Assembly (NCBI RefSeq): GCF_963576615.1
Contig: NC_088708.1
Coordinates: 1,798,001 to 1,862,000, forward strand
Direction: 5' to 3'
Length of the DNA: 64,000 nucleotides
Source of the DNA: Watersipora subatra
Taxonomy: Eukaryota; Bryozoa; Gymnolaemata; Cheilostomatida; Watersiporidae
Shown here one piece after another: positions 3,384-32,136 of this stretch. The notes beneath the pieces are model-generated. The model ran no database searches, had not been told where the DNA came from, and saw nothing but the letters and a program-made list of their open reading frames with translations. Every line of letters begins with the position of its first letter. The stretch's first letter is position 1. A program made the position numbers and the translations under genes.

Positions 3384-3598
3384 CCATTTGCTGGTCACCA
3401 ACTCGTGTCTCTACGTATTAAGAGATCTTCCCAAACAGAAGGGTCTTGCCATGGTTCTGTCTAGGAGGCCTCTCAAGAATATTGTCAAGATAACTTCGAA
3501 GAAGAAGTTGCCAGAACTAATCACTTTTAAATATGGCACATACGAGGAGGACGGCATGGTAGTGACTGACACCGAGAAATTTATCATAGACAAAGCAG
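3384..3598 (+). CDS. TBC1D23: TBC1D23 penultimate exon
   Basis: A 215-nt exon (1+213+1) after the acceptor cattgtag and before the donor gtgagg. It encodes the core of the C-terminal domain, including VKITSKKK and LITFKYG. The paralogous exon at 26274-26488 has exactly the same length and phases. Confidence 0.9.
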
Positions 3599-5369: not shown

Positions 5370-5699
5370 ACACTCAACTTCTCTCCGATTCCCAGTGACT
5401 ATCATAGCAATATCGAAGAAATATTATATTATTTACACGCAACTCGGCATTTATCTCTAAAAATTATTTTATTTATTTAACTATAATATACTTGCTATAG
5501 AAGTCAGTTCAGTGTCTGAGGGACTCATAAACTTTATCTGCATCAGAGTAAATTGTAAGTTTAGCTGCTTCTTACTTGAGTAGCTCTCTCTCTCTCTCTC
5601 TCAGGCTAAACAGACACATTATAAAAAATATATAAGAGTAATTATATGCGAGTAAATAAAACATCAAAAATAAATTTGTGGCCCGGCGTCCGCTAAAAT
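5370..5699. other. TBC1D23 3' flank with CT microsatellite
   Basis: Presumed 3' untranslated and downstream region. It contains a (CT)n run at 5581-5604 and AATAAA at 5655-5660. No other feature seen. Confidence 0.4.
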
Positions 5700-6795: not shown

Positions 6796-6799
6796 AGTT

Positions 6800-8155: not shown

Positions 8156-8159
8156 ATAT

Positions 8160-8335
8160 CCTGTGGTTGCAGCTGGTTGGTAGTCGAGCAGCTACATTGC
8201 GAGTAGTCTTCGATTTGATAGCTGGCAGATGCTGGTCAACAGCTGATTGACTGAAAGGTAACACCAACTTTATGTTATATCCACTCTTAAACATTGTAGC
8301 CAATTGCGAGTCACCGACTCGTGTCTGTAGGTGTG
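8160..8335 (+). pseudogene. Broken copy of TBC1D23 intron/exon junction
   Basis: Diverged copy of about 3255-3420: intron end, acceptor cattgtag and the first 30 or so bases of the penultimate TBC1D23 exon, sharing CTGGTCAACAGCT and TGACTGAAAGGTAAC. The exon part breaks at a TAG and stops after the motif for CTCGTGTCT. It begins within a few bases of the end of the MITE at 6800-8155. Confidence 0.75.
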
Positions 8336-8345
8336 GTAGAGCAGC

Positions 8346-9081
8346 CAACTCTTAGCCAATGTAGCAGCATCAGCCTTGACTAGACAAAGTTGGCGTAACT
8401 AAGAGAAAACTAACTGAAGTTCACATTTGTCTGAACCAATGGTTATGTTGGTGTCATAAGGTAACTGGTGAGCTGGTAGTCGCCTACTCTTGTTATAGCT
8501 TCAAGTTTGCTTTTTAGCTGAAGCTATTTGAATAAGGCTTAGCTACGGCTTACCCGTCTTCATTTACAACTCAACAAATGTTGCCTACAAATAACTTGAG
8601 GCTATAGCAGTATTCATCCCTAATGTACTTGTAATAATCGTTACTCTTAGGATAGCCTGGGTACCACTAGCACTCACATGACCGCTTCATATGTTCAACC
8701 GAATAATATGATACCTGTGCTGCAGTGTTAGGTTTATGCTTGTAGGAGTCACATCATGGGGCCGAGATATGGATAACAAGTGCTGTTTGTTAATAGTGTT
8801 TATGTGAGAAAAATTAGCAATCGTTGAGGATGAACAGCTAGTCCCTGATCAAACACAGCCGCTAGCTAATGTAGCCCGCACGCCTTGCCTGCGCTTGAGT
8901 AATCTACCTACTTAGCTGATTGTTGCTTATGCTGCATCAACCAATAAAAATTAAGTATATTTAATAGTATTAAATGGAAATGTGGGCTTGGCGTGGAAAG
9001 TTTGCCAGTTGAGTAGAGTATCTCTAGCTAAACAGAAGCCTCCTTGTGAGTACTCATACATGGTCCTAACTGGTAACTGGC
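8346..9081. other. No gene recognised
   Basis: Unique-looking sequence with no convincing reading frame or repeat structure. Confidence 0.3.
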
Positions 9082-9145
9082 ATGGACAAACGGAAGGCGC
9101 CGCTCTACACCCGTGAGTCGACTGCTCAGTTGATGGCTCTTGACT
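9082..9145 (+). CDS. Candidate first exon of TBC1D23-like gene
   Basis: ATG at 9082 has a purine at -3 and G at +4, with an in-frame TAA just upstream. Twenty-one codons (MDKRKAPLYTRESTAQLMAL...) end at a perfect donor GTAAGT in phase 1. The next known exon of the TBC1D23-like copy (13566) needs exactly a phase-1 partner, so joining is possible and leaves a Ser codon at the junction. There is no homology support. Alternatively, reading through the donor gives a 42-codon ORF to 9210. Confidence 0.25.
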
Positions 9146-9210
9146 GTAAGTACTGTAACTTGAGTACTTACCCAGAATTTATAAACTTACCCAAACTGAC
9201 GCAGCGCTAG

Positions 9211-9780
9211 ACTCGCAGTTATTTGCTTTCGATAAAATAATAGCCAGCTACCATAAAAACTTCCACTGCTGCGTTACCAGTACATATTTTTGTGTTTCTA
9301 CTGTTACCAATCCAAACTCGCGCTAACAATTTCCACACAGTGATCCCCAGGCTAGCTGATAAAATGGATACATACACTTTTGTACAAACTTACTTATAAC
9401 TGACAAAATTTTAAAGAGAAACTTCAATTATTCAGAGGAGTCAGCAGTCTGTCACAAAAAGAGATAGTACACATATACGCTTGCTTAACAGTCAAGAATA
9501 AAAGTCATGTAAAATGATTTTGGCAGCCAGCAGATGCAGAATCATGAGTTTATAAAATGGTATTGCCTTTTACACAAGAAGCTCTCCATCTTTGAGCTGG
9601 TTGAAATGTCAAAGTTAATACACATGCCTATGATTCAAATTATGTTGGCCAATAAAATATATAAACGTTTTCACAGGGCCATTTCAAATTGCTTTTTCTG
9701 CTTGTGTTAAGTACATAATATTTTTTATATTATTATAAAATCAATGTATTGTTTTTGTGGTAAGCTTATGCATGCCGGAA
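9211..9780. other. No gene recognised
   Basis: No reading frame, repeat or structure that I can support. Confidence 0.3.
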
Positions 9781-9990
9781 AGAAATGGCCGAGTGTTGTA
9801 AAGAACTTGCCCTGCGAACAACAGGGCTTTAATTCCTGATGGTTACAAGAATGGCATTCAACCTTAAATTGCTTTCAGCAAATGGGCAGTTTCTCTGCTT
9901 CTGAGCTCAGACAGGGCCAGCCAAGACTACAGACCCATCATACTCGATCATCAAGAGATTACACACACGCACGTGCGTTTACACACATGA
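9781..9990 (+). repeat. SINE-like element with tRNA-like head
   Basis: The first about 75 bp resemble a tRNA promoter: ATGGCCGAGTGTTGTAAAG at the A-box position and a degenerate B-box-like TTTAATTCCTGATGG. A body of about 100 bp and CA-rich sequence (acacacgcac) follow. It does not fold into an intact tRNA. No second copy of the body was seen. Confidence 0.35.
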
Positions 9991-11489
9991 ATGCATGTAT
10001 GAAAAATCAGAAATTGCCTTTCAGAACATTGGCACTATTTTTATCATAATAATAATAGGCCATATATTTATTATTAAACGTTAAGTTTTTATCAAAGAAA
10101 CACTTGAACAACAAACGGAGAACTTGTTTATTGTCATAAGAGCTCTGAACAGGTGAGAATCACTACCCAGAACACAATTATGAAAGTTGTGGGTACTCAC
10201 TGCACTCTGTTAGCATATCAATCATTATTCATTCTGTCGTGCTACTATGGTTGCTCAACATCTTACAATATCCTGTTAGATACGCCATGAGTATCCAGCA
10301 GGCACACTTAGTTGACATGATACAGTTATCAATACCTGACTATGTTTTCTACTATAGCCACCCACATTGATGTATAACAGCCAATAGCGAGCGAGCCGTG
10401 TACAACCACAACAGCCAAAAGCAAGCCGTGGGCAACTCAAATGAAGTTTTGACCGAAAAAACCATTAAATAAACATACATGATTACCCATTTTCGCACCC
10501 TAAATGCTAGGAATGTTTTACAATTGGGGGATATATTGTCCAGCCATTGTTCATGGTCAAAGCTTTCTAGGCTGATGCCAAAAAAAATATCTGGTTTGGC
10601 AATCAAAACATGGGGATCTTGGTGAGAGGGCATCGACCCGGAAGGTATTCACTATCTCAATGTAGCTCTAGCTGTTACACCCGGCTACAAACTAGTGAAA
10701 CTACTAACAGGTTCTCACTAAAAAACCCAAAATCGTGAGAAGGGTTTCTTTGGCTCACTTGATGTTAGTGCAGAACCAGAATGGGTTTCAGCTTTGTCTA
10801 CAACAAAACTGAGCTTCATGCTGATGTTCTACATCAGTGCAAATACACATAGCGTATAGTTTATCTGGTTTGAATCTGTGGAAACTTTACATAGCCTAAA
10901 ATTAGCTTTACACATAAAGTACTTGTTCACGCAGGTTGCCACTAGTTGAATGATCCTTGATATAGGTTGAAGTCAGCACCAGGTGACAGAGTTTAGCTAA
11001 CACTCTGTATTCACTGCCTCTCAATGCTTCAGAAATATTGTTTGCAGAGTTGCTGCTCCTTTGAAACCATAATTGCATTCAGGTTTCATGCAGTCAGAGA
11101 AAACCTTGCAACCCGATTTCAATAAACTTTAACAGGTGCTTGTGTCGAAGTTATATTACATCTCGTACTAATAAGCTACCGAACTTATTTTATACGTTTG
11201 TTAATCTATTCCTATTTAATCTTATGCACTTTCTGAAATGGTTATTATTAATAAGTTTGAAGGAAACTTTTCCATTTTTAGCTGCTGTAAGCAGTATCTG
11301 GTCAGTATTCAAAACTGCATGCTGCTCTCATCACACTGGTCATTTATTATGTATATTAGTTCACTGTAATAAAATTAAGTTCATCGTAATCTTCACAACT
11401 AAAAGCTCAAAAAACTGATTATTGGCAAAGACACACATCTTTGTAGTTGTTCCCATTTCCATGTGTTGAATGTTGCTATGGAGCACCTA
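9991..11489. other. Intergenic or intronic, no gene recognised
   Basis: Contains a 93-codon minus-strand frame (10633-10352) and a 92-codon plus-strand frame (11140-11418). Neither shows recognisable motifs or splice support. Confidence 0.3.
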
Positions 11490-11758
11490 GGATAGACATA
11501 GAGTGATTATCATCTATCATAGACAATAGAGTGATTATCACCTATGATAGACATAGAGTGATTATCACCTATAATAGACATAGAGTGATTATCACCTATG
11601 ATGGACATAGAGTGATTATCACCTATAATAGACATAGAGTGATTATCACCTATGATAGACATAGAGTGATTATCACCTATGATAGACATAGAGTGATTAT
11701 CACCTATGATAGACATAGAGTGATTATCACCTATGATAAACATAGAGTGATTATCACC
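11490..11758. repeat. 27-bp minisatellite
   Basis: About ten copies of ATAGACATAGAGTGATTATC plus CACCTATG. The period is a multiple of three, so both strands stay open (peptides with SIIGDNHSM or IITYDRHRV units), which is a by-product of the repeat rather than evidence for a protein. Confidence 0.95.
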
Positions 11759-12449
11759 CCTAGGGTACTCTGCTAAACAACCAGCTCGATGGAGTTACAT
11801 AGTTGTAAACTATCTGTCACCTGTTATCAAAAGGTCCATCAGTTGAAGATGCATAAGCTGAGTGGATCTACCAATTTATGAATCCTTTCCAATCCAATTA
11901 TGAATGCATCAACTGTATTACTATGATTACTTAATTTTTCATGTAATTTCGATATCAAAACAAGTGTGCATTAAAACTGATTGTTCAGTTTAGGATCATC
12001 AGATTTTGTTCTAGATTTTTTGCATTAGAAAGCTGACATATTTTTCTACCAGACTGTGGTGCATGCTTGGCTATCAATTTTTCTGAACACTACAGACTCA
12101 CGGATATAACACGAGAGGAGCTTTATGTATGCCAAGTTTGACAAGAGCGATACGCGTCTTAAAAATGCTACATCGCAATGAAACTTTTTCAGATACTGCT
12201 TAAATATATTCTGAGTAAGCTTACAAAAGTTCACAGTAAAATATATATTAGATCAAAATATACAGCAAAATTAGTACACAAATTTCAATCGGACAATTAG
12301 CAGAGTTATCACATCTCACCAGACATTATTGACAGCATGATGTTAAAAGATTAAAATTAGTAATTTTACTTACTGACCTATTCTCAGAGTTACAATGAAA
12401 TAAATTTAGGCAGGTATTCATCGCAAATCACGCTCTGTATGCCTGGGTA
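11759..12449. other. No gene recognised
   Basis: AT-rich sequence, possibly 3' flank of the minus-strand exons at 12450-12957. Nothing else supported. Confidence 0.3.
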
Positions 12450-12957
12450 CTATGTCTGTGCTCTGTCCACGTTCATGTCATGATCGCTATCATGATCTTC
12501 TTGTGGTGTTGAGGTTGTTGGTCCATGGTCAGTTAGTCCTAAACTAGCTGCATCCTCTCCTAAATGCAAAGATAAATGTAAGAGATCATTGTATTTAGTG
12601 TTTCCTGCATGCAACTGATTCTACCAACACTACTACAATTACTTCTCCTAGTTCCATGAGCTGGGTTGTCATCCCTACCTCATAAAAACAAATACTGGAG
12701 TCGTTTGATGACAGAATATTCATATACACAAAATAAATCATCAACTGCAACTGGCTATAAATCTTACAATTTCTTTCACTCGATTGACAGTTGTTGTATT
12801 GCTATGGAAACGATAATATAAAAATGTTTTGGTCAGCTAAAATATTTTAATTTCCACTAGTTACCAGAACTTTTACTCACCTTGTTCTTCTAAATGATCA
12901 TCAAAGGTGTCTTGATCTTCATATTTATCATCATCTGAACAAGCTTCATGACCAGTG
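12450..12957 (-). CDS. Acidic C-terminal tail, two exons, unidentified
   Basis: Minus-strand exons 12957-12881 (77 nt) and 12559-12450 (110 nt) join in frame across a GTGAGT/AG intron. They encode a 61-residue acidic tail beginning TGHEACSDDDKYEDQDTF, continuing through PQEDHDSDHDMNVDRAQT, and ending at TAG (12450-12452). The acceptor of the first exon follows cattgctattag. No family is recognised and no upstream exons were found. It would lie antisense inside the candidate first intron of the TBC1D23-like gene. The skewed acidic composition, intact splice sites and shared frame favour a real exon pair; the small size leaves chance possible. Confidence 0.4.
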
Positions 12958-13565
12958 CTAATAGCAATGATAGAGGCATTTAAAAATCGGCTTTCTATAA
13001 TTACCGATAGCAAACAAAATGCTGAAAAGCGCTCGTAGCGTAGTGCTTTTTAAAATGAGAATAACAATGGCGTAGTGCCCAACAGACATCTAGAATCTTA
13101 GGTAATTTACTCCTAGGATGTTCATACATCGATTAAAAAAATTAATTTTGCTATGATATTACTGGACAAGCAGTAAACTGTCCAAACCGTTTGCATCCAC
13201 TTGGAATATCGGCTACTCCGGGATCAGGGTGAAGGGAGCATAACTGCATCCCGGAATATCCTAGATCGGACTTAGAAGGGTTAATCACTATTCCTATCCA
13301 TATTGTTACAAACTGCTTTCTGATGCACGTTTATATATTTTGAAAGAGTTTAGTTGGCCAGAGTTGTTTTCCTTGTCAGCAAAATGAATCTATCAGCCAA
13401 GACTCCTGTCATCATTTTTGTGTTAGAAAATTTACAGCAATTCCTATTCTTGAATTATTTCTTCATTTGATCACTTTATGCTGACTGCTGCTGTTTTCTT
13501 CATCTTTGGCTTCTAATCTTATCTCCTGTTCAAATGTTTTTACATAAAAGGAATTTATTTGGCAG
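12958..13565. other. No gene recognised
   Basis: Intron sequence of the TBC1D23-like gene, if its first exon lies upstream. Nothing else supported. Confidence 0.3.
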
Positions 13566-13695
13566 CAACTGGAGGAGTCGATGAAAGAAGTGAAATTGGA
13601 AGCACTCTCACTCTTGATGATATTATTTCTAGGAAGAATACAAAGTTTCACTGCGATTGTGAGCAGGTCAAGGACAACGAGCAGTTTATTCCAAG
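13566..13695 (+). CDS. TBC1D23-like exon a
   Basis: A 130-nt exon (2+126+2) between acceptor atttggcag and donor GTGAGT. It holds FHCDCEQVKDNEQFIP, aligned to the segment that precedes the HLLVT block of TBC1D23. A 35-bp minisatellite begins 20 bp into the following intron. Confidence 0.72.
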
Positions 13696-15976
13696 GTGAG
13701 TGCTGCGCGCAGCAGTCAGGTAGCTGGCTAGGGTAAGTGATATGTACAGGGCGAGTAGCTGGCTAGGTTAAGTGATATGTACAGGGCAGGTAGCTGGCTA
13801 GGGTAAGTGATATGAGTAGGTCAGGTAGCTCAATAGGTTATAACATTTGGCCGTCTGACTAAAACTGAAGTACATGTATGTACGATGGAGTAATCATAAA
13901 GTTTCATCTCAGCTGTATTTTTTAAGAACGAATGCTACTCCAGTGCAATTCTAGTAGAAACAAGTGATGCTAAATTGGTGAGCTACTGACCTTATTTGCT
14001 AATAAACAGCTGCGAGAGGAAGAGTCAATATAATGCAGCCTGCTGAGAAAGTAATGTTTTATAAAAGTAGCGTTAATACTTCTGAGTGTTAATACTTCTG
14101 AGTGTTAATATTTCTGAGCGTTAATACTTCTGAGTGTTAATACTTCTGAGTGTTAATAATTCTGAGCGTTAATACTTATGAGTGTTAATACTTCTGAATG
14201 TTAACACTTATGAATGAAGTCCAGAAATGTGGAAATCTCACATGGTTATAGCATGAGCAACAAATATAATAATAACATCATCCATCCTAAAGCCTTATTT
14301 TTAAAAAGAAAATTCTTCACAATCATAGATAATGTAATAATTGTTAGTAAACATAATTTTTTTATGATAAGCATTAAAAAGTTCATTTACACCAACTCTT
14401 TAGCATATCCTCCTATCCAAACCGCTACTAGCTAATGTACATCCCTCAGGAGTCACATGTTGGTTGAATTATCTTTACTGCAAGCCCCCTGCAACCTCTC
14501 CCCGTTATCATTGCAAAAGGATGAAAAACACTGCAAAACAAACTAATATAAATGAGGAAAATGTGACCTTAACGAAGACCACCAGCTTCAACCTTATCTT
14601 AAAATAAAATCAAGTATGGCATTCTCTCATTCTTGCTTTGTGAAGTTTTACTTATCCTGCATCCTGATAGAAAAACTAGCTAACTTTTTCCTTCAATAGA
14701 GAGCCGTACAAATTAGCTTTGTTAGAGCAGTTTGTCGGCGCGTGTCAAGTACTACGTGTAGGTGTGAACCTACCAGCTAGCAACTCTCAGGGAGTCTCTA
14801 ATCGACTAATAATGTGACGCTGTTTGATTAGTATGAAGCTAATGAGTTATATCCCTAAAAACTGTTGGGGGTTGTGAAGGTCTTGCACGCTTGGCTCACT
14901 TGTTATAAATGAACTACCAACCATCAGGTCTGAGGTATGGGTCTCATGTGATATGATATTATGCCATGGTTACAAGGAGCACTAAGGCTGTACCAGCTAA
15001 CAGATTCTTCGCTATGCAAATAGAACTATTACTAGTTATAAAATTCTTGCATGGTATTTGCTATGATTAGTATTTCAAAGAGTCAAATGAAGTACAGAGT
15101 TATTCTTGTAATGCTTCAAGTTGTAGGTAATCTTTAGCCCTTTTGTTGTTATAATAACGTGGCGTGGTTGCTTTTAATATTTTTTAAGCAACTGACAATT
15201 TAGCCTTTCAATCATAGTTTCAAACTAAAATGCTTCAAGGGTATCAATTAAATTGCCTTACAAACTAAAGAGCAATATCCTGTACCACTTTGAGTCAGCC
15301 CACTAAGACTGCCTGCTCTGGTGAGTGCCAGATGGCGGCTAGCTTCAGAAATGTTCCGGGTGAAATTTTCTAACAGAGTCGAGTTTAGCCCGAGTGGGTC
15401 TTGTAACAAAAGTATTTGTTACAGTTAGTTAACAGATTAAAAATGATAGAGCAATGAGTGGTAGATAGAGCTCACCTCAAAGATTATGCGAATGTTTATG
15501 TAATGACATATATTCCTAAAGCGCAAGAGTACGCTATATATAAAAGACGCTATATATACACCTAACTTGGAACTATTCCATTCCTCCAGCTCACGCCTCT
15601 TTATATAAAAGCAGTAAAGTGTTCATATCAATTTGTTTCATAGATATAGTAAAAATCAGTTTCTTGCATATTCTAAAATATATTAGTTTAATAAATGTAT
15701 CGATATCAACTCAATCCATATATATACACGAGTATATTAGCATATATATACATACATATATATTTAAAACTATGTGTACTAAAAAACTACAAGTTTAGGT
15801 AAAACATTTTATTACTTAAAGTTTCGTGCGGTAGGCAAGCCTACCGCACGAAACATTAAGTAATAAAATGTTTTAACTAAACTTGTAGTTTTTTAGTACA
15901 CATAGTTTTATATCAGCTCTGTTTTTACTCTAAACATTGAGCACTCTTTTTACTAATGTGTATAAATATAACTTTT

Positions 15977-16016
<40 letters not shown>

Positions 16017-19000: not shown

Positions 19001-22000
19001 TGTACTCTAATCACCACCTTGATAGAGCCAGATAAACTCACCAACTGCACTTTTACCATCAAACTTAAGACATCAAGTCAGTCTTACTAGAAGTCAGCTT
19101 ACTAGCAACTTTTCTGAGATTATTAACCGTATTGAAGAGGAGCTAGACTGGAAACACTCTGGCAATAGGGAAGCTATGTGAGTTCTAAGGCCTCCGTATG
19201 ATGGTACATGAGTCCTTGTATGTTTGATTCTCAACTACATGTATGAGAGAATCATCGGTGTAGAGTGACATTTACTGCACTACATATAAGAATGTTTTCA
19301 TGTTCTGACAACGGTGATGTCTACGTATTTTGCGAAAGTTATTGTAGAAAAGACGACTTTTTAACCAGAGGTAATGTCCTCATAGATTGATGATCTCGAA
19401 GCATGCTTATAGTTGCTATCTATTATATTAACTTACCCCAAGCCATAGGCAATGCATGTCATCGCTTCATCTTTCTTATTCTCGCAGCTTTTGTAAACCT
19501 AGTATGAAATAAACTAAAATTTGCTAGGAAACCCGATTGTACTATCAACATACAGTCAAACATGGATATCTTGCCCACGGAGAGCTCAAACACATGGTTA
19601 ACTCGAACGGTTTCTTTGGTCCGTTCTCAGGTAATGATGAATTGCTATTGATAACTCGAATTCAACACTGTTAACTGGAACTGTTTTTTGCCCAACGGCT
19701 ACTGAAACGGTTGTTATCGCTTTAGAAAATCACTTTATTCCAAGCCATAGAGGTAAACCTCAACTTTTCATAATTCATAAGCGTCGTTATTACCACTATC
19801 GGCAAAATATTTTTGTCAACTACTTTTCTAAAGGTTAGGTGAAATTTGATTTATACCAAATATCCGCTTAGCGATCGCCCTTCGGAAGCAAGGAAAGTGG
19901 TATTCGTTAAGAGCAACACTCCGAGGCAGTTCAATTAGAAGTTTTACCAGGTTTTATGGTATATTGTATATCAATCTATCACTCACGCTTTTTGAATGGA
20001 TACTTATTGAACGTACATGTATTCTGTGTTTAGGTCAAACGATGAATAGTTTTCCGACGTTGATTCCGTGTTGAATCAACGTCGGAATGTTGAATGTTTA
20101 AAACGTCTTAAAGATTGTTGTAATTAAACGTATCTGTTGTCTTAGCTACAAAAAACTATTCATCGTTTGACCTAAACACAGAATAAGTTTGTACATTCAA
20201 TGAGTATCCATTCAAAAAGTGTGAGTGATATACAATGTACCGTAAAACCTCGTAAAACTTCTAATTGAACTGCCTCGGAGTGTTGCTCTTAACGAATCCC
20301 AGGTAAAGTGAGGTAATCTTTGCATAAACTTCAAGAAAAATCGGCAAAATTGATCGTAGGTAAAACGCTCAAAAGAAAAAAATGTCTTTTCTTTTGAGCA
20401 TTTCAACAACGATCAAGTTTTGCCAACGCCAATCTAAAAAATGTCCTGGCAATAACATCACCTCAAACAACAAACCAATCTCAAGTGATAGAAAAATCTC
20501 TATACTTTTTGATGAAAACGTTTTAAACTTTACATTAGAAGCATTTAATTTGAAACAAGCCATATATGTATATGTACATGTATCTTCTAATAAGTAAGTA
20601 AATACATGGACTTGTGACAGTAATCTGATAGCTCGAACGCTCTGATAATTCGAACACTTTCGCTCGGTCCCATGAAGTTCGAGTTATCCATGTTTGACTG
20701 TAATTACTAATGCGTTGTTATTCAATTACGCCATGCTAAGAAATATATATATGGCTCTTTCCAGCGTTACAAGTTATATCATATCGTCGCTACGACGTTT
20801 GAAAAGTTTGCCAAGGTTATAGCTACTAGTTATTATGTTGAATTTTAGTATTTATTTGTTAGAAAAGTCTTGATTATTTCAGTAACTCTTGCAACATGTT
20901 CAGGTGTATTTAAACTACTTCATAAGAAAACAACAAGTAGGGCATAACCAAATACCAGAAGTAATTACATGTACATGCATAGAACTAAAGCCTGCCCGTG
21001 TTTGGTTAAACTAGGTGTCAGTATGTGGGCAGTTATTGACAAGTGTCAGTATGTGGGCAGTTATTGACAAGTGTCAGTATGTAGGGCAGTTATTGACAAG
21101 TGTCAGTGTGTAAGGCAGTTATTAACAAGTGTCAGTGTGTGGGCAGTTATTGACAAGTGTCAGTATGTAGGGCAGTTATTGACAAGTGTCAGTATGTAGG
21201 GTAGTTATTGACAAGTGTCAGCATGTAGGGCAGTTATTGGCAAGTGTTAGTATGTAAGGCAGTTATTGACAAGTGTCAGTATGTAAGGCAGTTATTGACA
21301 AGTGTCAGTATGTAAGACAGTTATTGACAAGTGTCAGTATGTAGGGCAGTTATTGAAAAGTGTCATGCGACAACTGCTAATTATGACTAGGACATATCTT
21401 AATAGTTTAACTATTTTGTATGTAAAACTCGTTAAAATAAATGCTCTTCTGCTTAGCGTTGTGAAGTTTTACAGGAAGAGTTGTTGTTATACAGAGATAA
21501 GAAGTTATGAGAAAGGAAGAGGAAGTTCAAATTTGGTAGCACCACTGAAATATCAGAATAGAATTGACACATTTGTGCTATTTGCGGGAAAAAAAATTTT
21601 ATATTTTTATTTTTATATATTATCAGTATGAGCAGTGGTTGGCGCTGAAACTATTGAATGTGATTGACTTTTTAACCAACAACTTTGACCAAAAAACAGT
21701 CAGTATTTGGGTAGCTAAACCAAACTATTGGCATGGAGAAGCACTAGACACTCCAGTTAATGCGTGTTTAATTTCAAAATACTGTAATATTCGTGTTTGA
21801 ACGCCACCTATATTTGACTGCAGCTATAGGATAAGAGTTGGAAAAAAGAGTGCCAGGGTGTTCAAATAGAGATTTTACAGTTGCCTACACCTTGCGCAGT
21901 AGACCAGAGATTCTCAGCTGAAACAGCTTGCATTCTCCTATTGCTGTCTATACAGTTATTGCTGCCTATACAGTTATTGCTGCCTATACAGTTATTGCTG

Positions 22001-25000
22001 CCTATTTAGTTATTACAGTCAATATATTTATTGCTGCCTATATAGTTATTGCTGTCTATATAGTAATTGCTGTCTATATAGTTATTGCTGTTTATATGGT
22101 TATTACTTTCTATATAGTTCTTGCTGTCTATGTAGTTATTGCTGTCTATATAGTTATTGCTGCCTATATAGCTATTGCTGTCTATATAGTAATTGCTGTC
22201 TATATAGTTATTGCTGTTTATATGGTTATTACTTTCTATATAGTTATTGCTGTCTATATAGTTATTGCTGTCTATATAGTTATTGCTGTCTATATAGCTA
22301 TTGCTGTCTATATAGTTATTGCTGTTTATATAGTTATTACTGTCTATATAGTTATTGCTGTCTATATAGTTATTGCTGTATATATAGTTATTGCTGTCTA
22401 TATAGTTATTGTTGCCTATATAGCTATTGCTGTCTATATAGTAATTGCTGTCTATATAGTTATTGCTGTTTATATGGTTATTACTTTCTATATAGTTATT
22501 GCTGTCTATATAGTTATTGCTGTCTATATAGTTATTGCTGTCTATATAGCTATTGCTGTCTATATAGTTATTGCTGTTTATATAGTTATTACTGTCTATA
22601 TAGTTATTGCTGTCTATATAGTTATTGCTGTATATATAGTTATTGCTGTCTATATAGTTATTGCCGTCTATATAGTTATTGCTATCTATATAGTTATTGA
22701 TGTCTATATAGTTATTGCTGTCTATCTAGTAATTGCTGTTTATATAGTTATTGCCGTCTATACAGTTATTGCTGTCTATATAGTTATTGATGTCTATATA
22801 GTTATTGCTGTCTATATAGTTATTGCTGTCTATATAGTTATTGCTGTCTATATAGTTATTGTTGTTTATATATTTAATGCTACCTATATGGTTAATGCTG
22901 CCTCTATAGCTATCACTAATTGTAGTGGCAAAACTTATACATCAAGGCAAAAACAGAACTGCTAAGACTTTGTGGATTCACATTAGCCTGCAGCTATCGA
23001 GATGCATCTTTCTTCTATTTGCAAGCAGCACCGGTAGTTGCTGCCAACTGTGCACTAGATGTAATAAAGCTGCTCACTAAGTCTTTATTACAAACACAGT
23101 TGGCGGAACGTTTTATAAGAAACAAATGCCCTGAGCTCCTTAATGCGTACAGCTAATTCGAAGGTTATAATAGTTTGAAAGCATTTGAATCTAAAAATTA
23201 TAACATTAATTGATTTTGATGTACTCCTATAAAGGCTACGCCATAAAAAAGCAGTATGTATAGCTTGATTGACATCAATCCACTTATGATTATTGTTGGC
23301 AGGAGGTTTGCGCAGCTGCAATCAATAGATTGATAGGCAATATTTTAATAATTAGCTCATGCCGGCAGCACATCATTTTAAGTAGTGCACTTGTTTATAG
23401 CAGCTGTCAGTCCACAAGCTTACCTACATATCTCTTTCTTACGATCTAGCAGGATTGTACATATACATGTAATATATCTAGCAGAGTGTGTACACGTATG
23501 CATCATATCTAATAGGGTGTGCACATATATGCAACATATATGTGTCATGATCACAGAAACCATGGTTAAGTCAGGGTTATAAGATTTAGAGTTATCTACA
23601 CTAGCAGAAGGAAAAATCCTCACAGTTATTTTGCAAAAAGAACTTTGATTCTAGCTTAATTACAGCAGATTTTATGGTCAATAAACTGAATGCGCGTTTA
23701 CCATTAGTGCAAAAACATAGTTCTGAGAAAACTGGTGTTAAAGTTTGAGAAACGAAAACCAATGTACAATTTTGTTTACATTTCAAAACGTCATAGCAAC
23801 CAATATCAAGAGGTTGTGACATTTATCTAGATTTCCGTCTTTATATCTAAAAAATTATGCAGATTTTAAAAATCTAAACAGATTTTAGCTGGTTGTCATA
23901 GAAATAGCTGTATATCTATAAGAAAATGTATTACTTATTTTGCAGATATTAAAAACGGCTTGGCAGTGCCGCGATATTGAGCACAACCGTAGTATGATCA
24001 ACAAAATCTTAAAAAAAATAGTAACAGTAACATATTGTACACCATCACTATATACTTTGATTTTGTAAATTCGAATAATTATTCTTATAATTAAATATTG
24101 TAATAATCTTATAAGAATCGTTAAGAATATATCATTGTAGTTCCCTTTACCTTCACTGCTTTTGACATCAGTTGGAATACCAAAGTACTCATTATAAGTG
24201 TCAAAAATGTCAGAGTTATCTTTCAAATCGGCAAAAAAGAAACGATTACGTTTGTCGGACACCATTTTTCAGTACTTCCTGTTTAGCATAGCAACGGTTT
24301 TAAGGTTTTTTTTCCCCGAGGGTTAAAAACATTTATTATTTAAACTGACTTTAGATTCAGAAAGATCACTCTTTGATTGGCCCAGATGCACGTGTTACAA
24401 AAATCGTTACCAATATTATAAATTCAGTTGGTTGAACTGTAAAGTCGGATAACTCAACTTCGTGATTTGCGACTTAACCATGGTTTCTGTGACCGCGACC
24501 CATATAGCAGGTGTGTACATACATGTAACATATCGAGCAGAACTGTAGATACATGTAACATATCTAGTAGGATATGTACATACATGCAACATATTTAGCA
24601 GGGTGTATATATACATACACATAACATACTCAGCAGGGTGTGTACATACAGTACATGCAACATTTGTAGTCGGGTGTGGACACACATGTAACATATCTCA
24701 CAGGGTGTGTACATACATGTAACATACATATATACCATGTGTGTACATACATGCAACATATCTAGCTGGGTGTGGACACACATGTAACATATCTCACAGG
24801 GTGTGTACATACATTCTACATTAGTGGACTTCAGTTATTTGTAATCGGCAGCTCTGTGTGTCACGAAGAGAGATAGCTGCAGTTTTGCTGCCATTGCGTA
24901 AATAATTGCCCTGGATCTCTAAAAGCAAACTTGCCAGTCGCTAAATGGCAACAACCATGTTTAATTAATCATGTTCAAGAATCTGCTCTGTTGAAAACTT

Positions 25001-28000
25001 AACCTAATTTTAAAGATGTAAATAGTTATTACAACCCAGGCCTACAGACCTAAATAACTTCTTTTGTTGGCCTACAAGTCTACATCACTTCTTTTATTAA
25101 CCGACAGATCCAAATAACATTTCTTGTTGACCTCCTGCTGACCTACAGGTCTAAATAACCTCTCCTGCTGACCTACAGGTCTAAATAACCTCTCCTGCTG
25201 ACCTACAGGTCTAAATAACCTCTCTAGCTTACCTACAGGTCTAAATAACCTCTCCTGCTGACCTACAGGTCTAAATAACCTCTCCTGCTGACCTACAGGT
25301 CTAAATAACTTTTCTCGTTGGGCTTCATGACAAAACTAATTCAAAGTTATTATCTTTGGCTGACTATTTACAAGATGGTAAATTCAAATGTTGCTCTGAT
25401 GCATTTGTGCTGCTGCCTGAGTAAAGGTGCATAGAACCGTATATCACAAAAAAGTGAAAAGTTTAAAAGCTAAAATGTTGCAAGAGCAGCTAGAGCGAAA
25501 CAGATAATCTGATGAATGTGAATCAACAGTCATTACATGCGTAACAGTTATGGGATGAAAGGTTTGTGATTCATTTTACTGCTCTCTGATTGGCTGCTTA
25601 CTTACAACTTTTTATCTAACGGTAGTATGGCTCCTTACTCATGAACAACTCATCTCTTCTTCTGACTAATGGAAATTTACTGGCTCATCCTTAGTTAACT
25701 TCAGCTACTTTCATCCACTGTATAATTCTAATATGCCAGCTGTAAATTGCTAGTTAAAAGTTGCCAGTAGTCAGTTGCAAGCTACTACTAAATAATCACA
25801 TGGCTGAGATACCGAATGTATAACAATCCGTTAAAGAAAGCCCTTCTGCAGTGATGTTCAGACGCTGTAGCGGGTGAATCGGAGGTTGCTGCTCAGTATT
25901 CTCACAGTCAAGGATTACAATGTTGATGAGAATATGAAGTGCAGACTGACAGTAGAAACATATCTTTATGATCATATGAGTGACTCGTTATAACCATCAG
26001 ATAACAGCAGGGGATTCATAATCCCTACATTTTACGCTGGGTGACTGCATCGATAGGTCGGATGGGCTTCAATTGTTTGATTCCATAGCACTACTTTGTA
26101 TTAAGATATTCAATATACTAAATATACTAAAATATGTTGTTTTGACTTTGTAAAACGAATGGCTTTTGTTCACTATATAGTACTATGCAAATGAGAGAGT
26201 TGTCTCCTTTTCCTATCCCCGGAGATTTGCATTTTGTCTGCTGTTTTGGTTGATACAGGTGTGTCTTTTGCAGCCATCTGGTCATCACAGACAAGCATCT
26301 CTACATCCTCAGGATGACAGAAGTAGAACACAGATATATCGTTAAACTGAGACGTAAAATTAGCACCATCCTTAGAATAACAAAAAAGGCTAAAATGCCT
26401 GATGTGATCAAGCTTGAATACGGATCACGAGAGAGAACTGGAGAGCATGTCACAGATACCGACAAGCTCAACATTCCTAGGAAAGCAGGTGAGACGACGA
26501 CGTGCATCAGCTGAGTGTTGATCTATCTAGCCCTATCAATCATGCTTCCTGTCAAGAATCCCCTCTCTCAGCATTTATTTGATGATATCATAGAGCTGGG
26601 ATGGTATCCCATCCTTCCTGGTAGTTTTTAAATTCTTTTACCAACTTACGAAGTGAATCCTATTAGAACCACATGTCAATTTGAACCCTGGAGTCCTATG
26701 TTAGAGAACAACTATTGTGTCTCCTTCATTGAAATAAAAAAATAGAGATTTATCAAAATTGTAGGAAAGATGCGAATGAATCTGCGCACAGTCTTGTAAT
26801 TAGTGTCAACTTATTTAATGAGCCATTAACCATAGTCCTGGTCTGGTTTGTGAGTACAACACCTGACACACACACCATTCATAATTTGCCAAACGATTGA
26901 TTAAATTCTGTATGATGCTGCCTTGCTATTTCAACTTGATGACTATTATGATTCTCTCTATCTAAATGACTTATCATAGAAATACACATACATGTAAGTC
27001 CTCACCAACTCTCTGGTTTTATATGTGTAACCCTTGTTTTGCCAGCGATAAAAGTGTGCTGACACCCCCTTGTTCAGTATAATCATACTTCGACATACGA
27101 GTGCCCAAACATACAAGAAAATCAAGACACAGGCGGAATTTTGAGCAAGTTTATTCCTTGAGATGCGAGTATGAGATATGTGTATATACAGTATGTAGTT
27201 TAAGATATGAACATCAGCGGTCTCGATGGCCACTATGCTGCCAAGTACGCGAAACACCGCTTTCGAAAACAGCATCACTTAGTATTTTTCCTCAAGTCAG
27301 TTTAAAACAGTTTTTAAAAGACTGGCTAAATGTTATAGTGAATGAAAGGCAAAAAGCACCAAACTGGAAACAGATAATAAAAAGTTAAGATGACCAAATT
27401 AGAAATTAGAGTAAGTTTAGTAAGAGATTCAAACTTAGCTTCAAGTGTGTGTTTAGTAAGTTAATTTCATTTAAGTTAAATTCAAAGTTTCTGTTGCGTA
27501 GCGTCACAAAAGTTTTGTGTAACAAATGCGTTACTGTCCAGTCTCTCTCAGACCGCACTTAGCCATTACGTCTGTCTCAAAGGTAAAAACTCACAATAGT
27601 GTACACAGTGATGTTACATTTTATTGTAGATCATAACAACTAAATAAGTATTTGTTACTTTGTTAGCGTAGGTACTGAATTATAACAATTAAAAACACGT
27701 TTTTCTACGGTACTATCCTGTTTTTTGTAGATTTTTTCATACTATGGTAGCGGATTAATTTGTATCTAGTTATTTTATATAGGAAATAGTGTCTTGAGGC
27801 ATGAGTAAATTGACATACGAGCTCAGTCACGGAACACTTTAAGCACGTATGTCGAAGTATGACTACATAACTGACAATGGGGCAAGTTTTTACACGAGTT
27901 CACTAGTTGAAGTTTTTATGCAACTCTAGTAACATCTGTTCGATGGTTTTGATTGTTGATACATTTTTCTACAAAGATCTCTAAATAACTGAAGTGCAGT

Positions 28001-31000
28001 AAAAATGATGCTCATTAAGGTATTCGGTCTGGATTAAATTATTGTAATATTTAGACCTTGCTCTAGTTGACATTACTGTCAGTGTGTACACTTACGGAAA
28101 TGAGTTTACAAACTCACTTGATATGTCAGTATTGATTAGAACTCAGTCAATATGGCATCACAATGCTGCCGCAGGTGTCGGGCATCTGCATTATGTCTCA
28201 GATGACACATTGTTTTTGGTTTGTGAATACTTGCAGGTAAATTAAGACCAAATATGCAGGTAAAATTTATAAATATAAAATAGCTGGTTGACATTAGTAG
28301 CGGATTTATTCTCAAAATCAGCGGTGCTTGCTGACTGGTCAGAGTCAGCGCTTGTGCCATTCAGGCATTTCCTATGAGACTCAGCTTCGGCTTCAGTAGC
28401 CTGCTTGAACTACTAGAAAAAATATATGTGCCCAAGCTTTCCCAAAATGCTATAAATATGTATATACAGCATAAACTTAATTAAACTTATAATACACCCA
28501 AAAACAAACAAACACCTTCATCTAAAAGTTAGAATGGTATATGTCATATTTTTTGATTAAACATAAAAATTTTCTGTGCAAAAGCCTTTTTATAACTCAT
28601 GTAAAACTGGGCATTTAACTAGTACATGTATATATGTATGTATTTATGTATGTGTATATCTGTGCATATGTATAATTGTAAAAACGTTCCCACCTGAAGT
28701 CGAATTCCCTTCGTCTCCATGAAAAATCTTCAAAAATGCCTCAAGCACTTGTGAGCAGACTATCATGATCATTACCTCTATATTAGCTATTAGATAGATG
28801 CTTTCACGGTTGCTCGGCCTCCTCTCGCAATGGACTGGAGTTGCGCTGCTTTTTCTCATCATACAAGAGTTGACAGCAATGATTTATAAGATACTATCAT
28901 TTCTATGATTGGCATGATGTCTCCGAAAAATGTCACAGCATTCTCATGCGCACGAAGCTGGCTACAACCCACAGCTCTGTGGCACTTACTCGTTGTTTAG
29001 TTGTTCCATGATAGACTGCTCTGTACATCTTTAATGTCCTTATGACAACAGCAATTCCGAGGAAAATCTGGAATTTGTGAAGAGATTAGACTATTGAGGG
29101 ATTATAAATAATTCTCTATCACTATCCTGTATTTTATAAAACTTCCTTTGAGCCATCATAGCTTGTACTTAGAGTTTTCAGACCGAATTATGAATAATAA
29201 CTAAAGAGTGAACACGGTTTATTACAATCGTATAGCCTTGATTCATGAATACTCTTTAGTCCATGAATGTGTTAAAAAAGTGACCAATTTGTCGTTTGGA
29301 ACAGTGAAAAATATGCCGATTGTTCAGCTTTGTTCATATAAAACCAAGAAGAAACAGTTCAACATTACAACTCTGTGTAAGGTCTCTCTGAGCAACTCTT
29401 ATTGAGGCTATTTACTATTATTGTCATCATAAACTATATACATTGCATATCATTGGATGCAAATTGTCAAAACTCCACTGTTTCAATAGTAAGTAAAAAT
29501 TTGGAGGTTTTTTCTTAAGCAGTCTGGTAGTGTTACAAAGGGCCAAGGGTGGAGTCGACTAGGGTGGAGTCAACTAGGGTGGAGTCAACTAGGGTGGAGT
29601 CGACTTGGGTGGAGTCGACTTGGGTGGAGTCGACTAGGGTGGAGTCGACTAGGGTGGAGTCGACTTGGGTGGAGTCGACTTGGGTGGAGTCGACTTGGGT
29701 GGAGTCGACTTGGATGGAGTCGACTAGGGTGGAGTCGACTAGGGTGGAGTCGACTAGGGTGGAGTCGACTAGGGTGGAGTCGACTAGGGTGGAGTCGACT
29801 AGGGTGGAGTCGACTAGGGTGGAGTCGACTAATGTGGAGTCGACTAAGGTGGAGTCGACTAGGCCTATACCAACTGATCTTCTTCCACTCGTAAGAAAGG
29901 GCCTCCACAGTTCAAGCGAGTACATCAACACCCGTAGCTTGGTTAGCTTTAGCTCTGGAGTCGCTCGCTCTTGGGTTTAGTAGTTTAGTGGGCATCAACA
30001 AGGTCACTATAAGATTCAGCGGAGAATACTGAATGGCCTAGCTCTGATGGAACAGACGCTCCATCAGTCTGCTGTCATACTTATGACAAGACTTCTGGCA
30101 ATTATGTTAGACTATCTCGTTATCATGAGCTCATGAGTGCTTTTCCAAGAGATGCAGCCTGAAGAAAATATGACAAGTTGAGCACAGTGTGCGCAGGTAG
30201 TAGTCATGACAATGACAAATGAAGAGACCAATCAGTAGCCTACTTGCATGCCGGGATGACTGTTTGGAGACTCTAAGCAGAAAATTACAACTCTTTTCAA
30301 TGAAGTATTAAACAGAGAGAATGTTCTTACCAGCCTTATTGATATGTCTCAGCATGTAGAGGTGGAACGAGACACGAGACGTCTCGAGTATCGACCTGTC
30401 TCGTCTCGTATCGGTCTCGACTTAACTATTGCCAAACTCGAGACAGGAAATAGAACTAAAGCACCTGCGCACGGTTGTTAAAACATGGCTTCTTGCGGTA
30501 GCAACAACTCCATATATTGTAATGGATTGCGGGCACCTGCCTTTAAAGTTATACCCGGTCCGTTACTACCTGTTGCTATTGATTATGTTGGCCACTGAGT
30601 CTAATCATGCAGTCCGGACAACGGCCCTGTTATATTTTAGTTCGGTTCTGTGTCCTTAAAACAGATACCGGGTCATATCTAATTACTCTTCAGATAATCC
30701 AATTTAATAAATAAGACTTTTGCGGGTAAAATGTCTGTATTTTATCGTATCGTGTCTAAACACCAACTGCCCTTCATAAAATTTCGGGCCTCTTTTACGT
30801 ATATACTACCAATCGCGAGTAAAACTTGCCTGGACACGGAGAAACGAACGAAAGGCCGTGTCGACCATAGTCCGTGTTCGGTTAACAATTACGTTTTGTT
30901 AGCTCAATATAAGAATATACATGTGCATGTATACAGTAATTAGTATAATTTCATGAGTACAATTTAAATATAATTCACATACTACAGTTAATACACAAAC

Positions 31001-32136
31001 AAAACTTAACATTAATGAAACGATAAGAATGAAAGTGTTATCGTGTGTTCTTTTAGTTGCGGTATTTCTTTGTAGAGCGACGGCTATCGGTTTCATTACA
31101 CATTACATTAAAAAGTAAGAACTATTCAATAGATGGTAAAAATACACATGTACAAAGCAATATGTTTATAATAATTATGATCAATCAAGCTCAAAATTCT
31201 TAGAATATATAACTTCGGTATTTTAGAGTTGTTTGTGTCACTTCTGTTTACAAAAACTACATGCATATCACTATTAAAATGTTGTATTTAAATCGTTTAC
31301 ACCAGGCGAAAATTCAATTTAAAAATAGTTTTATTAATTTTATATATACCAAGTAGCTAGTACTTGTGTAGTGAAATCATCACCAAATGCTCATTATTTT
31401 ACTGTCTCGTGTCTCGAGTCTCGAATTTTTACAAGACAGTGTCTCGAGTCTCGTCTCGAACTTAAAAAACCTGTCTCGTTCCACCTTTATCAGCATGAGC
31501 TGCTTCCTATGAGACATTCAATAAAAGTAGAACTCAAGTCAAAGGAGATAATTTGGAGAAGCAAAATCAGAGTTATTGGTGTTTACTTTTTCCCAAGACA
31601 ACTCAGATACTTGGCTATGAATAGGGCTGGAAAACCTTAATATTAAATAATACAAATAAAATTAGTCTAATATAATTTCCTAACATTTCTATAATATTAT
31701 ACATGTATATATACTACCTAATGTGCTACTTTCTTAACTTACAATTACCATAAAACCTCTATTTGAATGTAAAACCTCTATTTGAACGCCATCTTTAATA
31801 GAACGCCACTCTACGAAAAGGTGTCACGACTTGTGTTATCAATCAGTGTCATAAGGTGACATGTTTTGACAAGTGTCAAAGCTTGTGCATTGCATATTCA
31901 ACTTTATCATAGAGTAACAATTGCTTACAGATGTAAGTACTGGTGTATTACATATGTTGTTATCAACTATACTCTAGGATGACAAGTTCTAATAAGTGTG
32001 AAGGCTTGTGCATTGCAGAAACTATTTTCAGCTTTGCCATGGAGTGACAAGTTCTGACAAGTGTTACCATTGTTGTATTACAGATGCCGTCATCAGGATT
32101 CTTAAACACATCAGAGTTTCTCCAGTAAGAGAATAA
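13566..32136 (+). CDS. TBC1D23 C-terminal domain paralogue
   Basis: Three exons, 13566-13695, 26274-26488 and 32084-32136, encode a diverged copy of the C-terminal PH-like domain of TBC1D23. Exon 1 gives ISRKNTKFHCDCEQVKDNEQ followed by FIP, matching human ...[21 protein letters not shown]. The AG|C junction restores the conserved Ser before HLVITDKHLYILR. Exon 3 gives DAVIRILKHIRVSPVRE and TAA, matching GDATKAIKQQ. All exons are open, have GT-AG sites and agree in phase. Identity to the neighbouring copy's 71-residue exon is roughly 35-40% by eye. No TBC or rhodanese exons were recognised between 5370 and 13565, so it may be a short stand-alone protein or a partial duplicate. ATTAAA at 32285-32290 could serve as poly(A) signal. 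Confidence 0.7.
13717..13836. repeat. 35-bp minisatellite, three copies
   Basis: Three copies of a unit containing GTAGCTGGCTAGGGTAAGTG, just inside the intron after exon a. Each unit carries a GGTAAGTG that resembles a 5' splice site, so the true donor at 13696 is followed by decoy-like donors. Confidence 0.9.
14070..14213. repeat. 16-bp minisatellite
   Basis: About nine copies of TTAATACTTCTGAGTG with minor variants (tctgagcg, tatgagtg). Confidence 0.9.
14214..15763. other. Intron sequence, nothing recognised
   Basis: AT-rich with short ATATA runs near 15535-15560 and 15720-15765. No gene or transposon could be supported. Confidence 0.3.
15764..15911. repeat. Near-perfect 148-bp palindrome
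   Basis: Arms of about 73 bp (15764-15836 and 15839-15911) are nearly perfect complements around a 2-bp AA centre; the tip reads GTGCGGTAGGCAAGCCTACC. Probably a foldback MITE. No clear target duplication; both flanks are TA-rich. Confidence 0.9.
15978..16014. repeat. (AT)n microsatellite
   Basis: Uninterrupted AT dinucleotide run. Confidence 0.95.
16870..17510. mobile_element. pogo/Tigger-family non-autonomous fragment
   Basis: Shares several blocks with 55300-55700 (for example AATTATATAATGCAA, TAGTAACTAT and GTTCTTACCTTC) and, in reverse, with 27560-27680. Inserted within the MITE at 16122-18688. Confidence 0.5.
17604..17776 (+). repeat. tRNA-derived SINE, copy 1
   Basis: The tRNA-like head has GTAGCTCAGAGATTAAATGC (A box) and GTGAGTTCTAATTC (degenerate B box). 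The tail reads CACAGACACACAAACACTGA then GATTTATATATATA. The tail recurs in reverse at 35292-35345 and, diverged, at 62537-62580, which defines a family. Confidence 0.6.
18690..19550. other. Intron sequence, nothing recognised
   Basis: A 70-codon plus frame (18798-19010) has no motifs or splice sites. No other feature. Confidence 0.3.
19551..20702. mobile_element. TA-flanked MITE, copy 1, carrying a nested insert
   Basis: Terminal inverted repeats TACAGTCAAACATGGATA (19551) and its complement (ending 20702), with TA at both ends as in Tc1/mariner targets. It aligns along its length with the 769-bp copy at 52876-53644, except for a roughly 400-bp insertion at 19900-20302. Subterminal parts contain repeated CTCGAA and AACTCGAAC words. 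Confidence 0.75.
19900..20302. mobile_element. Palindromic element nested in the TA MITE
   Basis: Absent from the sister copy at 52876-53644. Arms 19902-20052 and 20153-20298 are inverted copies, starting ATTCGTTAAGAGCAACAC. A small perfect hairpin TTCCGACGTTGATT/AATCAACGTCGGAA lies in the centre. The flanks GGAAAGTG (19892-19899) and GTAAAGTG (20303-20310) look like an 8-bp target duplication with one change, which would suit hAT. The arms include sequence related to the GGTTTTACGGTA family. Confidence 0.65.
20703..21014. other. Intron sequence, nothing recognised
   Basis: No coding or repeat signal. Confidence 0.3.
21015..21366. repeat. 28-29-bp minisatellite
   Basis: About twelve copies of GTGTCAGTATGTAGGGCAGT plus TATTGACAA, varying by one base in length. 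Confidence 0.95.
21800..21880. repeat. Fragment of the GGTTTTACGGTA MITE family
   Basis: Contains GAACGCCACCTATATTTGA and TTCAAATAGAGATTTTACAG, the end motifs of the family at 6800-8155. Confidence 0.5.
21930..22917. repeat. 18-bp minisatellite with 252-bp higher-order unit
   Basis: About 54 copies of GTTATTGCTGTCTATATA. Variant units recur in blocks: the TGCCTATATAGCTATTGCTG variant at 22161 returns at 22413, exactly 14 units (252 bp) later, followed by the same series of variants. One plus-strand frame stays open for 345 codons (repeating AVYIVI) because the period is a multiple of three; codon pattern and lack of unique sequence argue against a protein. Confidence 0.97.
22966..23440. other. 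Intron sequence, nothing recognised
   Basis: A 77-codon minus frame (23321-23088) lacks motifs. No other feature. Confidence 0.3.
23441..23560. repeat. Short diverged tandem array
   Basis: Three or four copies of a unit like GTACATATACATGTAATATA then TCTAGCAGAGTGT, related to the array at 24505-24820. It is followed by CACAGAAACCATGGTTAAGT, which occurs inverted at 24468-24492 next to that array. Confidence 0.8.
23885..24265 (-). other. Unrecognised 126-codon ORF
   Basis: The first 47 codons (MVSDKRNRFFFADLKDNSDI...) look coding-like; the remainder is AT-driven. The 5' end and downstream flank recur at about 59300-59440, where the coding-like middle is missing, so it is probably part of a dispersed element. 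No family assigned. Confidence 0.2.
24505..24820. repeat. About 32-bp minisatellite, TG/CA-rich
   Basis: About ten copies of a unit such as GTGTGTACATACATGTAACA then TATCTAGCAGG, variable in length. Confidence 0.9.
25025..25322. repeat. 30-bp minisatellite
   Basis: About ten copies of CTCCTGCTGACCTACAGGTC then TAAATAACCT; the first copies are more diverged. Confidence 0.95.
25323..26273. other. Intron sequence before exon b
   Basis: No gene or repeat recognised. The polypyrimidine-rich acceptor gtgtcttttgcag ends this stretch. Confidence 0.35.
26274..26488 (+). CDS. TBC1D23-like exon b
   Basis: A 215-nt exon with the same length and phases (1+213+1) as the TBC1D23 exon at 3384-3598. Conserved positions include HLVIT..HLYILR, LRR...ILRIT.K..MP..I..EYG, VTDTDK and the C-terminal KA before the junction. 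The ORF is intact between acceptor tttgcag and donor GTGAGA. Confidence 0.82.
26489..27065. other. Intron sequence, nothing recognised
   Basis: No coding or repeat signal. Confidence 0.3.
27066..27880. mobile_element. pogo/Tigger-type MITE
   Basis: Terminal inverted repeats TCATACTTCGACATACG (27084-27100) and its complement near 27846-27863 resemble pogo/Tigger ends; short outer extensions lie on both sides. The interior around 27560-27680 is the reverse complement of 17100-17200. No transposase. Confidence 0.65.
27881..29546. other. Intron sequence, no supported gene
   Basis: TG/TA-rich words occur at 28620-28675. A short minus-strand two-exon reading (29067-28990 and 28834-28790) is phase-compatible but too short to support (see rejected). 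Confidence 0.25.
29547..29863. repeat. 15-bp minisatellite with SalI-type GTCGAC core
   Basis: About 21 copies of GTGGAGTCGACTAGG with TAGG/TTGG/TGGA variants. The 15-bp period keeps several frames open on both strands (VESTRVESTR, VDSTLVDSTL, SRLHPSRLHP). It is GC-richer than its surroundings. Confidence 0.97.
30357..31489. mobile_element. Non-autonomous hAT element with 8-bp duplication
   Basis: A 1,133-bp element with ends TAGAGGTGGAACGAGAC and GTCTCGTTCCACCTTTA, flanked by the perfect 8-bp direct repeat TCAGCATG (30349-30356 and 31490-31497), the hAT hallmark. Both subterminal regions hold clusters of GAGAC/GTCTC and CTCGAG words. The interior is AT-rich with no transposase. Confidence 0.85.
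31750..31826. repeat. End fragment of the GGTTTTACGGTA MITE family
   Basis: Two tandem TAAAACCTCTATTTGAA motifs, then GAACGCCACTCTACG, as at the ends of the copies at 6800 and 16122. Confidence 0.55.
31850..32083. repeat. Degenerate about 62-bp tandem repeats before exon c
   Basis: Four diverged units with GTGACAAGTTCTGACAAGTG and TTGTGCATTGCAG. The last unit runs up to the acceptor ttgtattacag of the terminal exon at 32084; an equivalent of the acceptor is seen in an earlier unit (gtattacatatg). Confidence 0.6.
32084..32136 (+). CDS. TBC1D23-like terminal exon c
   Basis: Starts after ttgtattacag in phase 1, as required by exon b. It encodes DAVIRILKHIRVSPVRE then TAA (32134-32136) and aligns with GDAVKVIKQQVVKLLD of the neighbouring TBC1D23 exon. 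It lacks the Ser/Pro tail of that copy and is close to the human C-terminal length. Short, so less certain than exon b. Confidence 0.6.

Follow-up and report, generated by a model that had tools for sequence, protein, structure and literature searches.

TBC1D23-related exons in the window

The window analyzed here is a 64,000-nucleotide (nt) stretch of the genome of the bryozoan Watersipora subatra (C1:1798001-1862000 on the first contig, window position 1 being C1:1798001). It contains the end of the gene for TBC1D23, a Golgi vesicle-catching protein whose PH domain, according to recent work, recognizes the acidic TLY motif of cargo tails, and downstream of it a second set of related exons. 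We refer to the terminal exons of the TBC1D23 gene as copy A and to the downstream set, the subject of this analysis, as copy B. Their exons within the window are:

3384..3598 (+): exon b of copy A, 215 nt; last but one of the coding exons of full-length TBC1D23, with 58% identity to TBC1D23 of Lingula
5254..5369 (+): copy A last coding exon with stop, 116 nt; in frame with exon b, Lys kept at position 672
9082..9145 (+): copy B start exon, 64 nt, 21 codons plus 1 nt; no relatives found
13566..13695 (+): copy B exon a, 130 nt; covers the linker end and the first part of the PH domain; begins in phase 1, ends in phase 2
26274..26488 (+): copy B exon b, 215 nt; PH-domain core with an altered basic patch (KKAK)
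32084..32136 (+): copy B last coding exon, 53 nt; C-terminal helix and TAA stop, Leu replacing K672

Joining 9082-9145, 13566-13695, 26274-26488 and 32084-32136 gives an open reading frame (ORF) of 153 codons ending in TAA. The last three of these exons are open and each is preceded by AG; exons a and b are followed by GT. The original prediction held that these three exons jointly encode a product resembling the C-terminal domain of TBC1D23, and that a phase-1 start exon would complete the 153-codon frame. Both claims were borne out: the exons are open, splice-bounded and in phase, their translation matches the Pfam family TBC1D23_C (PF19430), and the entry "TBC1 domain family member 23-like [Watersipora subatra]" in NCBI/UniRef is 100% identical to the ORF over 153 amino acids (aa). 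The gene model of copy B is therefore already annotated in W. subatra, and because of this identity the annotated protein starts with the 9082-9145 exon. The Ensembl annotation of this species is described as based mainly on transcript alignment (PMC12902671); the source annotation of the 153-aa protein may differ.

An in-frame stop at 9067 lies 15 nt 5' of the copy B ATG, with no AG between them, so 9082-9145 can only be a start exon in its frame. With splicing from the donor at 9145, translation in that frame has to begin at 9082. Among the 83 ATG...GT candidates in 5371-13565 that have phase 1 and 10 codons or more, this donor ranks first, with 6.8 bits on a vertebrate-like matrix.

The three introns of copy B measure 4.4, 12.6 and 5.6 kb and hold minisatellites. 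Two of these, at 21939-22913 (18-nt unit, 54 copies) and 29546-29863 (15-nt unit, 21 copies), have unit lengths divisible by three and account for the longest open frames in the window, on both strands.

No description of a TBC1D23 PH-only gene was found in the titles and abstract openings searched, and TBC1D23 combined with bryozoa gave no literature match.

The full-length parent gene and the tandem arrangement

The full-length TBC1D23 gene starts upstream of the window and ends at window position 5369, its exons spanning C1:1774278-1803369. We searched 783,720,542 bases of W. subatra genome sequence (the published assembly is given as 783.70 Mb; PMC12902671). Matches to PF19430 were found in three places, corresponding to two copy A exons and copy B exon b, in a search that missed copy B exon a and the last exons of both copies. 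Lingula TBC1D23 (P0031) matched 12 places at E up to 1, all on the plus strand of one contig: ten at C1:1774278-1789212, which cover residues 11-539 with gaps and include two weak matches (E 0.005 and 0.23), followed by one match each in exon b of copy A and exon b of copy B. Copy A thus belongs to the single full-length TBC1D23 gene found in the genome; these searches scored exon by exon and considered the best candidates, so that a highly diverged further copy could escape them. Although the exons of a full-length W. subatra TBC1D23 are present in the genome, such a protein is absent from the best 120 of 1134 full-length relatives. It is likewise absent from the results of a word search (A- and B-type words) that covered proteins of approximately 363-1157 aa.

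The copy B ATG lies 3.7 kb past the end of copy A, on the same strand. The last linker exon of the parent gene (C1:1789131-1789210) ends in phase 1, and exon a starts in phase 1 and ends in phase 2 both in copy A (C1:1792056-1792167, 112 nt) and in copy B (130 nt). Exon b is 215 nt long in both copies, and the last coding exon is 116 nt in copy A and 53 nt in copy B. The equal length of the middle exon and its neighbor at 3384, pointed out in the original prediction, is thus correct, with the amendment that the neighbor is the penultimate exon of full-length TBC1D23. From these coordinates and phases, copy B reads as a tandem duplicate of the three terminal TBC1D23 exons, to which a new start exon was added.

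Search for TBC and rhodanese exons

The original prediction supposed a short protein without a TBC or rhodanese part. No TBC or rhodanese exon in the window stood out by tblastn with the Saccoglossus (P0006) and Capitella (P0007) proteins, including upstream of copy B, and a profile of 120 full-length TBC1D23 proteins agreed. The best N-terminal match by tblastn (23.5 bits) did not reach the 29.3 bits of the highest-scoring shuffled query out of 20, and the best by profile reached 3.8 bits, with shuffled frames scoring up to 4.4. For a power control, four proteins were kept out of the profile, and their N-terminal pieces of 45 residues all exceeded 10 bits (40/40, 15-92 bits), a mild control in that the pieces were uncut and relatives of the four proteins stayed in the profile. 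Known short C-terminal exons score near noise: copy B exon a alone, near or inside it, gave 24.6 bits by tblastn and 5.7 bits by profile, and the last exon of copy A alone gave 28.5 bits (shuffled up to 29.3) and 11.3 bits, respectively. Short or much diverged N-terminal exons could for this reason be missed. In the W. subatra genome, TBC and rhodanese matches were found only in the upstream parent gene.

Protein family and predicted fold

Among Pfam families, TBC1D23_C is the only one that copy B matches above the cut-off (E 1.2e-13, 51.3 bits; cut-off 26.5), with Myosin_TH1 and PH_PLEKHM2 matching below theirs. In the PDB, the copy B sequence matches 6jm5 (E 3e-14) and 8qqf (E 4.3e-14). An AlphaFold2 model from 29 aligned sequences has a mean predicted local distance difference test (pLDDT) score of 79.7, with ten-residue blocks of 84-94 over residues 31-140 and a low-confidence N-terminal start. 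The best four Foldseek matches of this model in the PDB are all the TBC1D23 C-terminal domain, with template modeling (TM) scores of 0.83-0.88 by target length (0.87 for both 8qqf_A and 6jm5_A). Copy B is thus predicted to form a complete PH domain resembling 6jm5 and 8qqf, and differs from the C-terminal PH domain of TBC1D23 in the short C-terminal tail of the W. subatra protein. Other PH-like domains, such as RhoGEF PH and Slm1 PH, share the general fold (Foldseek ranks 5-50, TM by query mostly 0.42-0.57), but by sequence copy B falls above the cut-off in the TBC1D23_C family only.

The part shared with TBC1D23 starts at approximately residue 550-556 in human numbering, counted on the alignment, close to the start of the human 545-684 construct, which is reported to suffice for LKB1 binding (PMC10899256). 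Full-length TBC1D23 bridges golgin-97/245 to vesicles; its TBC and rhodanese domains are described as binding golgins (PMC7274447), and the linker between rhodanese and PH domains as binding the WDR11 complex (PMC7093645). Copy B, adjacent to this gene and apparently derived from its last three exons, lacks the TBC and rhodanese domains and retains little of the linker. Exon a begins at the linker end, and the region binding the WDR11 complex is mostly missing.

Relatives of copy B exon b

Among database proteins of approximately 84-268 aa, five matches were found, including the W. subatra protein itself; the other four share exon b with 60-73% identity over 40-50% of the query. One of them (P0004) repeats P0002 minus its start and was dropped from the tree and the counts, leaving three B relatives (P0002, P0003 and P0005), of which P0002 and P0003 are 89% alike. 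In each of the four relatives the residue after exon b is Gly, as expected from a GT donor at the same place, which suggests that they share the exon b donor position. Across the four B sequences, 33 of the 72 exon b residues are invariant. A search for B relatives in viral and genome contig collections gave 313 and 144 pattern matches, respectively, none of them confirmed by tblastn.

Trees of exon b were built from 73 columns and 32 rows (the four B sequences, copy A, and 27 full-length rows hand-picked from the best 120 of 1134). The B clade stands apart from copy A and from all 27 full-length rows (support 100/100). Its stem measures 1.50 changes per site under one model and 3.45 under the other (the midpoint root dividing it into 2.86 and 0.59), the latter in a tree whose bootstrap had not settled; branches inside the clade are at most 0.63. 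Copy A falls among the full-length rows, beside Lingula (96/86) in the second-model tree and beside the chiton P0017 (0/73, unsupported) in the first. The attachment point of the B clade is unsure, because the alignment has 73 columns and the stem is long.

A topology with W. subatra copies A and B as sisters was rejected by the approximately unbiased test (p-AU 0.0028). A clade of B and copy A was not rejected (p-AU 0.404). Since a W. subatra duplication after the split from the other B carriers is rejected, the B exon, judged from these trees, has stayed open in more than one lineage.

The ligand site of copy B

In human TBC1D23, mutation of V626, K672, I675 or K632-K634 is reported to weaken or abolish binding of the acidic TLY peptide, with an approximately 20-fold weaker binding for K672 to Ala (PMC11093223). 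K632-634 are described as critical for both FAM21 and LKB1, which are reported to compete for the PH domain in human cells, where this domain is both necessary and sufficient for LKB1 binding (PMC10899256). A fusion of the TBC1D23 C-terminal domain to BirA, placed on mitochondria, is reported to biotinylate the vesicle protein syntaxin-16, an effect reduced by mutations in the site (PMC11093223).

The motif at positions 631-634 is SKKK in full-length TBC1D23 and KKAK in all four members of the B clade. Position 631 is Ser in 120/120 full-length rows and Lys in 4/4 B sequences, and K632 is conserved in both sets (120/120 and 4/4). K633 (Lys in 117 and Arg in 3 of the 120 rows) is Ala in 4/4 B, and K634 (Lys in 82, Arg in 38) remains Lys in 4/4 B. 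Nearby, T640 (Thr in 117, Ser in 3) is Lys and K642 (Lys in 99, Arg in 17, Ser in 4) is Glu in every B sequence. The basic triad K632-K634 is thus replaced by K-A-K in 4/4 B, the charge being made up by K631: residues 628-635 include four basic residues in 4/4 B and in 119 of the 120 full-length rows (five in the remaining row). As read from these alignments, the lysine patch is moved, not lost. Loss of the triad makes it less likely that copy B binds the same ligands, but does not affect its membership in TBC1D23_C, because the triad lies outside the Pfam definition.

As in the C-terminal PH domain of TBC1D23, pocket positions 626, 629 and 639 are hydrophobic in 4/4 B sequences, as is 675 in W. 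subatra B. Positions 672 and 675 are informed by W. subatra B (P0001) alone: P0002 is gapped at both, and the residues aligned there in P0003 and P0005, which were not counted, are in all likelihood intron sequence read as protein. That sites invariant elsewhere changed in a burst and were then fixed suggests re-specialization of the ligand site.

Origin of copy B

We consider it likely that copy B arose when TBC1D23 was partially duplicated in tandem, over its last three exons, and that it became a PH-domain-only gene, which gained its own start exon and would act as a free ligand reader. Several observations weigh against this account. Copy B is known here from DNA and predicted protein sequence, and its start-exon donor scores lower on the same matrix than those of exon a (12.4 bits) and exon b (10.8 bits). 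The duplicated cassette is also in frame with the linker exon of the parent. The other B sequences are single-exon predictions, so the stand-alone model is known for W. subatra only. K672, which is Lys in 116/120 full-length rows, is Leu in W. subatra B, and the long B stem could in part reflect relaxed constraint.

The frame shared with the linker exon would suit an arrangement in which copy B is an alternative 3' cassette of the upstream TBC1D23, the linker exon being spliced to PH cassette A or B to give full-length proteins with two ligand specificities. Copy B lies directly downstream on the same strand and duplicates the terminal three exons, and the phase-1 donor of the linker exon fits both exon a copies, both joins being open to their stops; such a phase match is, however, expected by descent alone. 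The annotated protein begins at 9082, with the best donor of the interval and a stop just upstream of its start exon. The word search returned 2 matches among 580 candidates, neither with a B-type domain, in a set that is incomplete (the W. subatra full-length protein with domain A is missing too). We regard this arrangement as unlikely. The stand-alone gene of the original prediction agrees with the domain-only annotated model and with the undetected TBC and rhodanese part, but its exon phases would also fit an alternative 3' end.

The long B stem, together with the large introns and their minisatellites, would be in keeping with a decaying partial duplicate that gene predictors still call. 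This is very improbable, given that the frame, splice sites and stop are all intact, that nearly half of the exon b residues are invariant across the B sequences, and that the rejection of a late duplication in W. subatra alone implies an exon kept open in more than one lineage. It is also rather improbable that B is an ancient paralogue that predates bryozoans and disappeared from most animals, an origin that would be compatible with the partial-duplication account. In the trees, B stands at a great distance from all full-length rows included, and where it attaches is unsure, as would be expected of such a paralogue; its head-to-tail position beside TBC1D23 with the same phases is better suited to a local duplication, a clade of B with copy A is not rejected, and W. 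subatra is the sole named organism among the five matches in the protein size range searched.

Proposed function

Under the partial-duplication account, copy B is probably a functional, re-specialized ligand reader that lacks both the golgin-binding part and the larger share of the WDR11-binding linker. The 153-aa protein would be made and soluble. It may bind acidic peptide motifs (TLY, LFa or some new variant) and perhaps also phosphoinositides on endosome-derived vesicles. It should be unable to bridge vesicles to the Golgi, because the golgin-binding TBC and rhodanese domains and nearly all of the WDR11-binding linker are missing.

As a free reader, copy B could act as a decoy that tempers TBC1D23-dependent capture, or as an adaptor for a ligand set of its own. 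The competition with full-length TBC1D23 raised in the original prediction is plausible by analogy if copy B has kept its binding to cargo tails or FAM21. The ligand-site change, being fixed, would favor an own ligand set over a decoy, and a new ligand set appears at least as likely as competition. We tentatively propose, as a possibility somewhat short of even, that carriers of B have a PH-only sibling of TBC1D23 whose acidic-ligand site, following the duplication, was re-registered from SKKK to KKAK and then fixed, serving as a second, untethered reader of endosomal cargo tails that controls vesicle capture by TBC1D23 or serves a new class of ligands. A natural paralogue consisting of the domain alone, with a fixed swap in the reading site, would be a ready-made experiment on ligand specificity, and bears on whether a free reader regulates vesicle capture.

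Other features of the window

Outside the TBC1D23-related exons, the window contains the following:

36435-36860 (-): probable terminal exon of a gene for a Ras-superfamily GTPase, with a double-cysteine end (KKCC); Pfam Ras 25.7 bits (cut-off 21.6), nothing matched by sequence in the PDB at E 0.001
33922-34203 (-): part of an integrase core (rve), probably left over from a transposable element; E 1.3e-5, under the curated cut-off
52034-52330 (-): gag-like fragment of a copia-type long terminal repeat element, E 0.0015, under the cut-off
57864-57982 (+): full-length 5S ribosomal RNA, 75.4 bits
39795-40315 and 40388-40908: palindrome of two 521-nt arms, 96% complementary, with 72 nt between them
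1500-2383 and 50760-51643: two copies, 92-95% alike, of an element of approximately 880 nt resembling a miniature inverted-repeat transposable element, with terminal inverted repeats of approximately 120-140 nt

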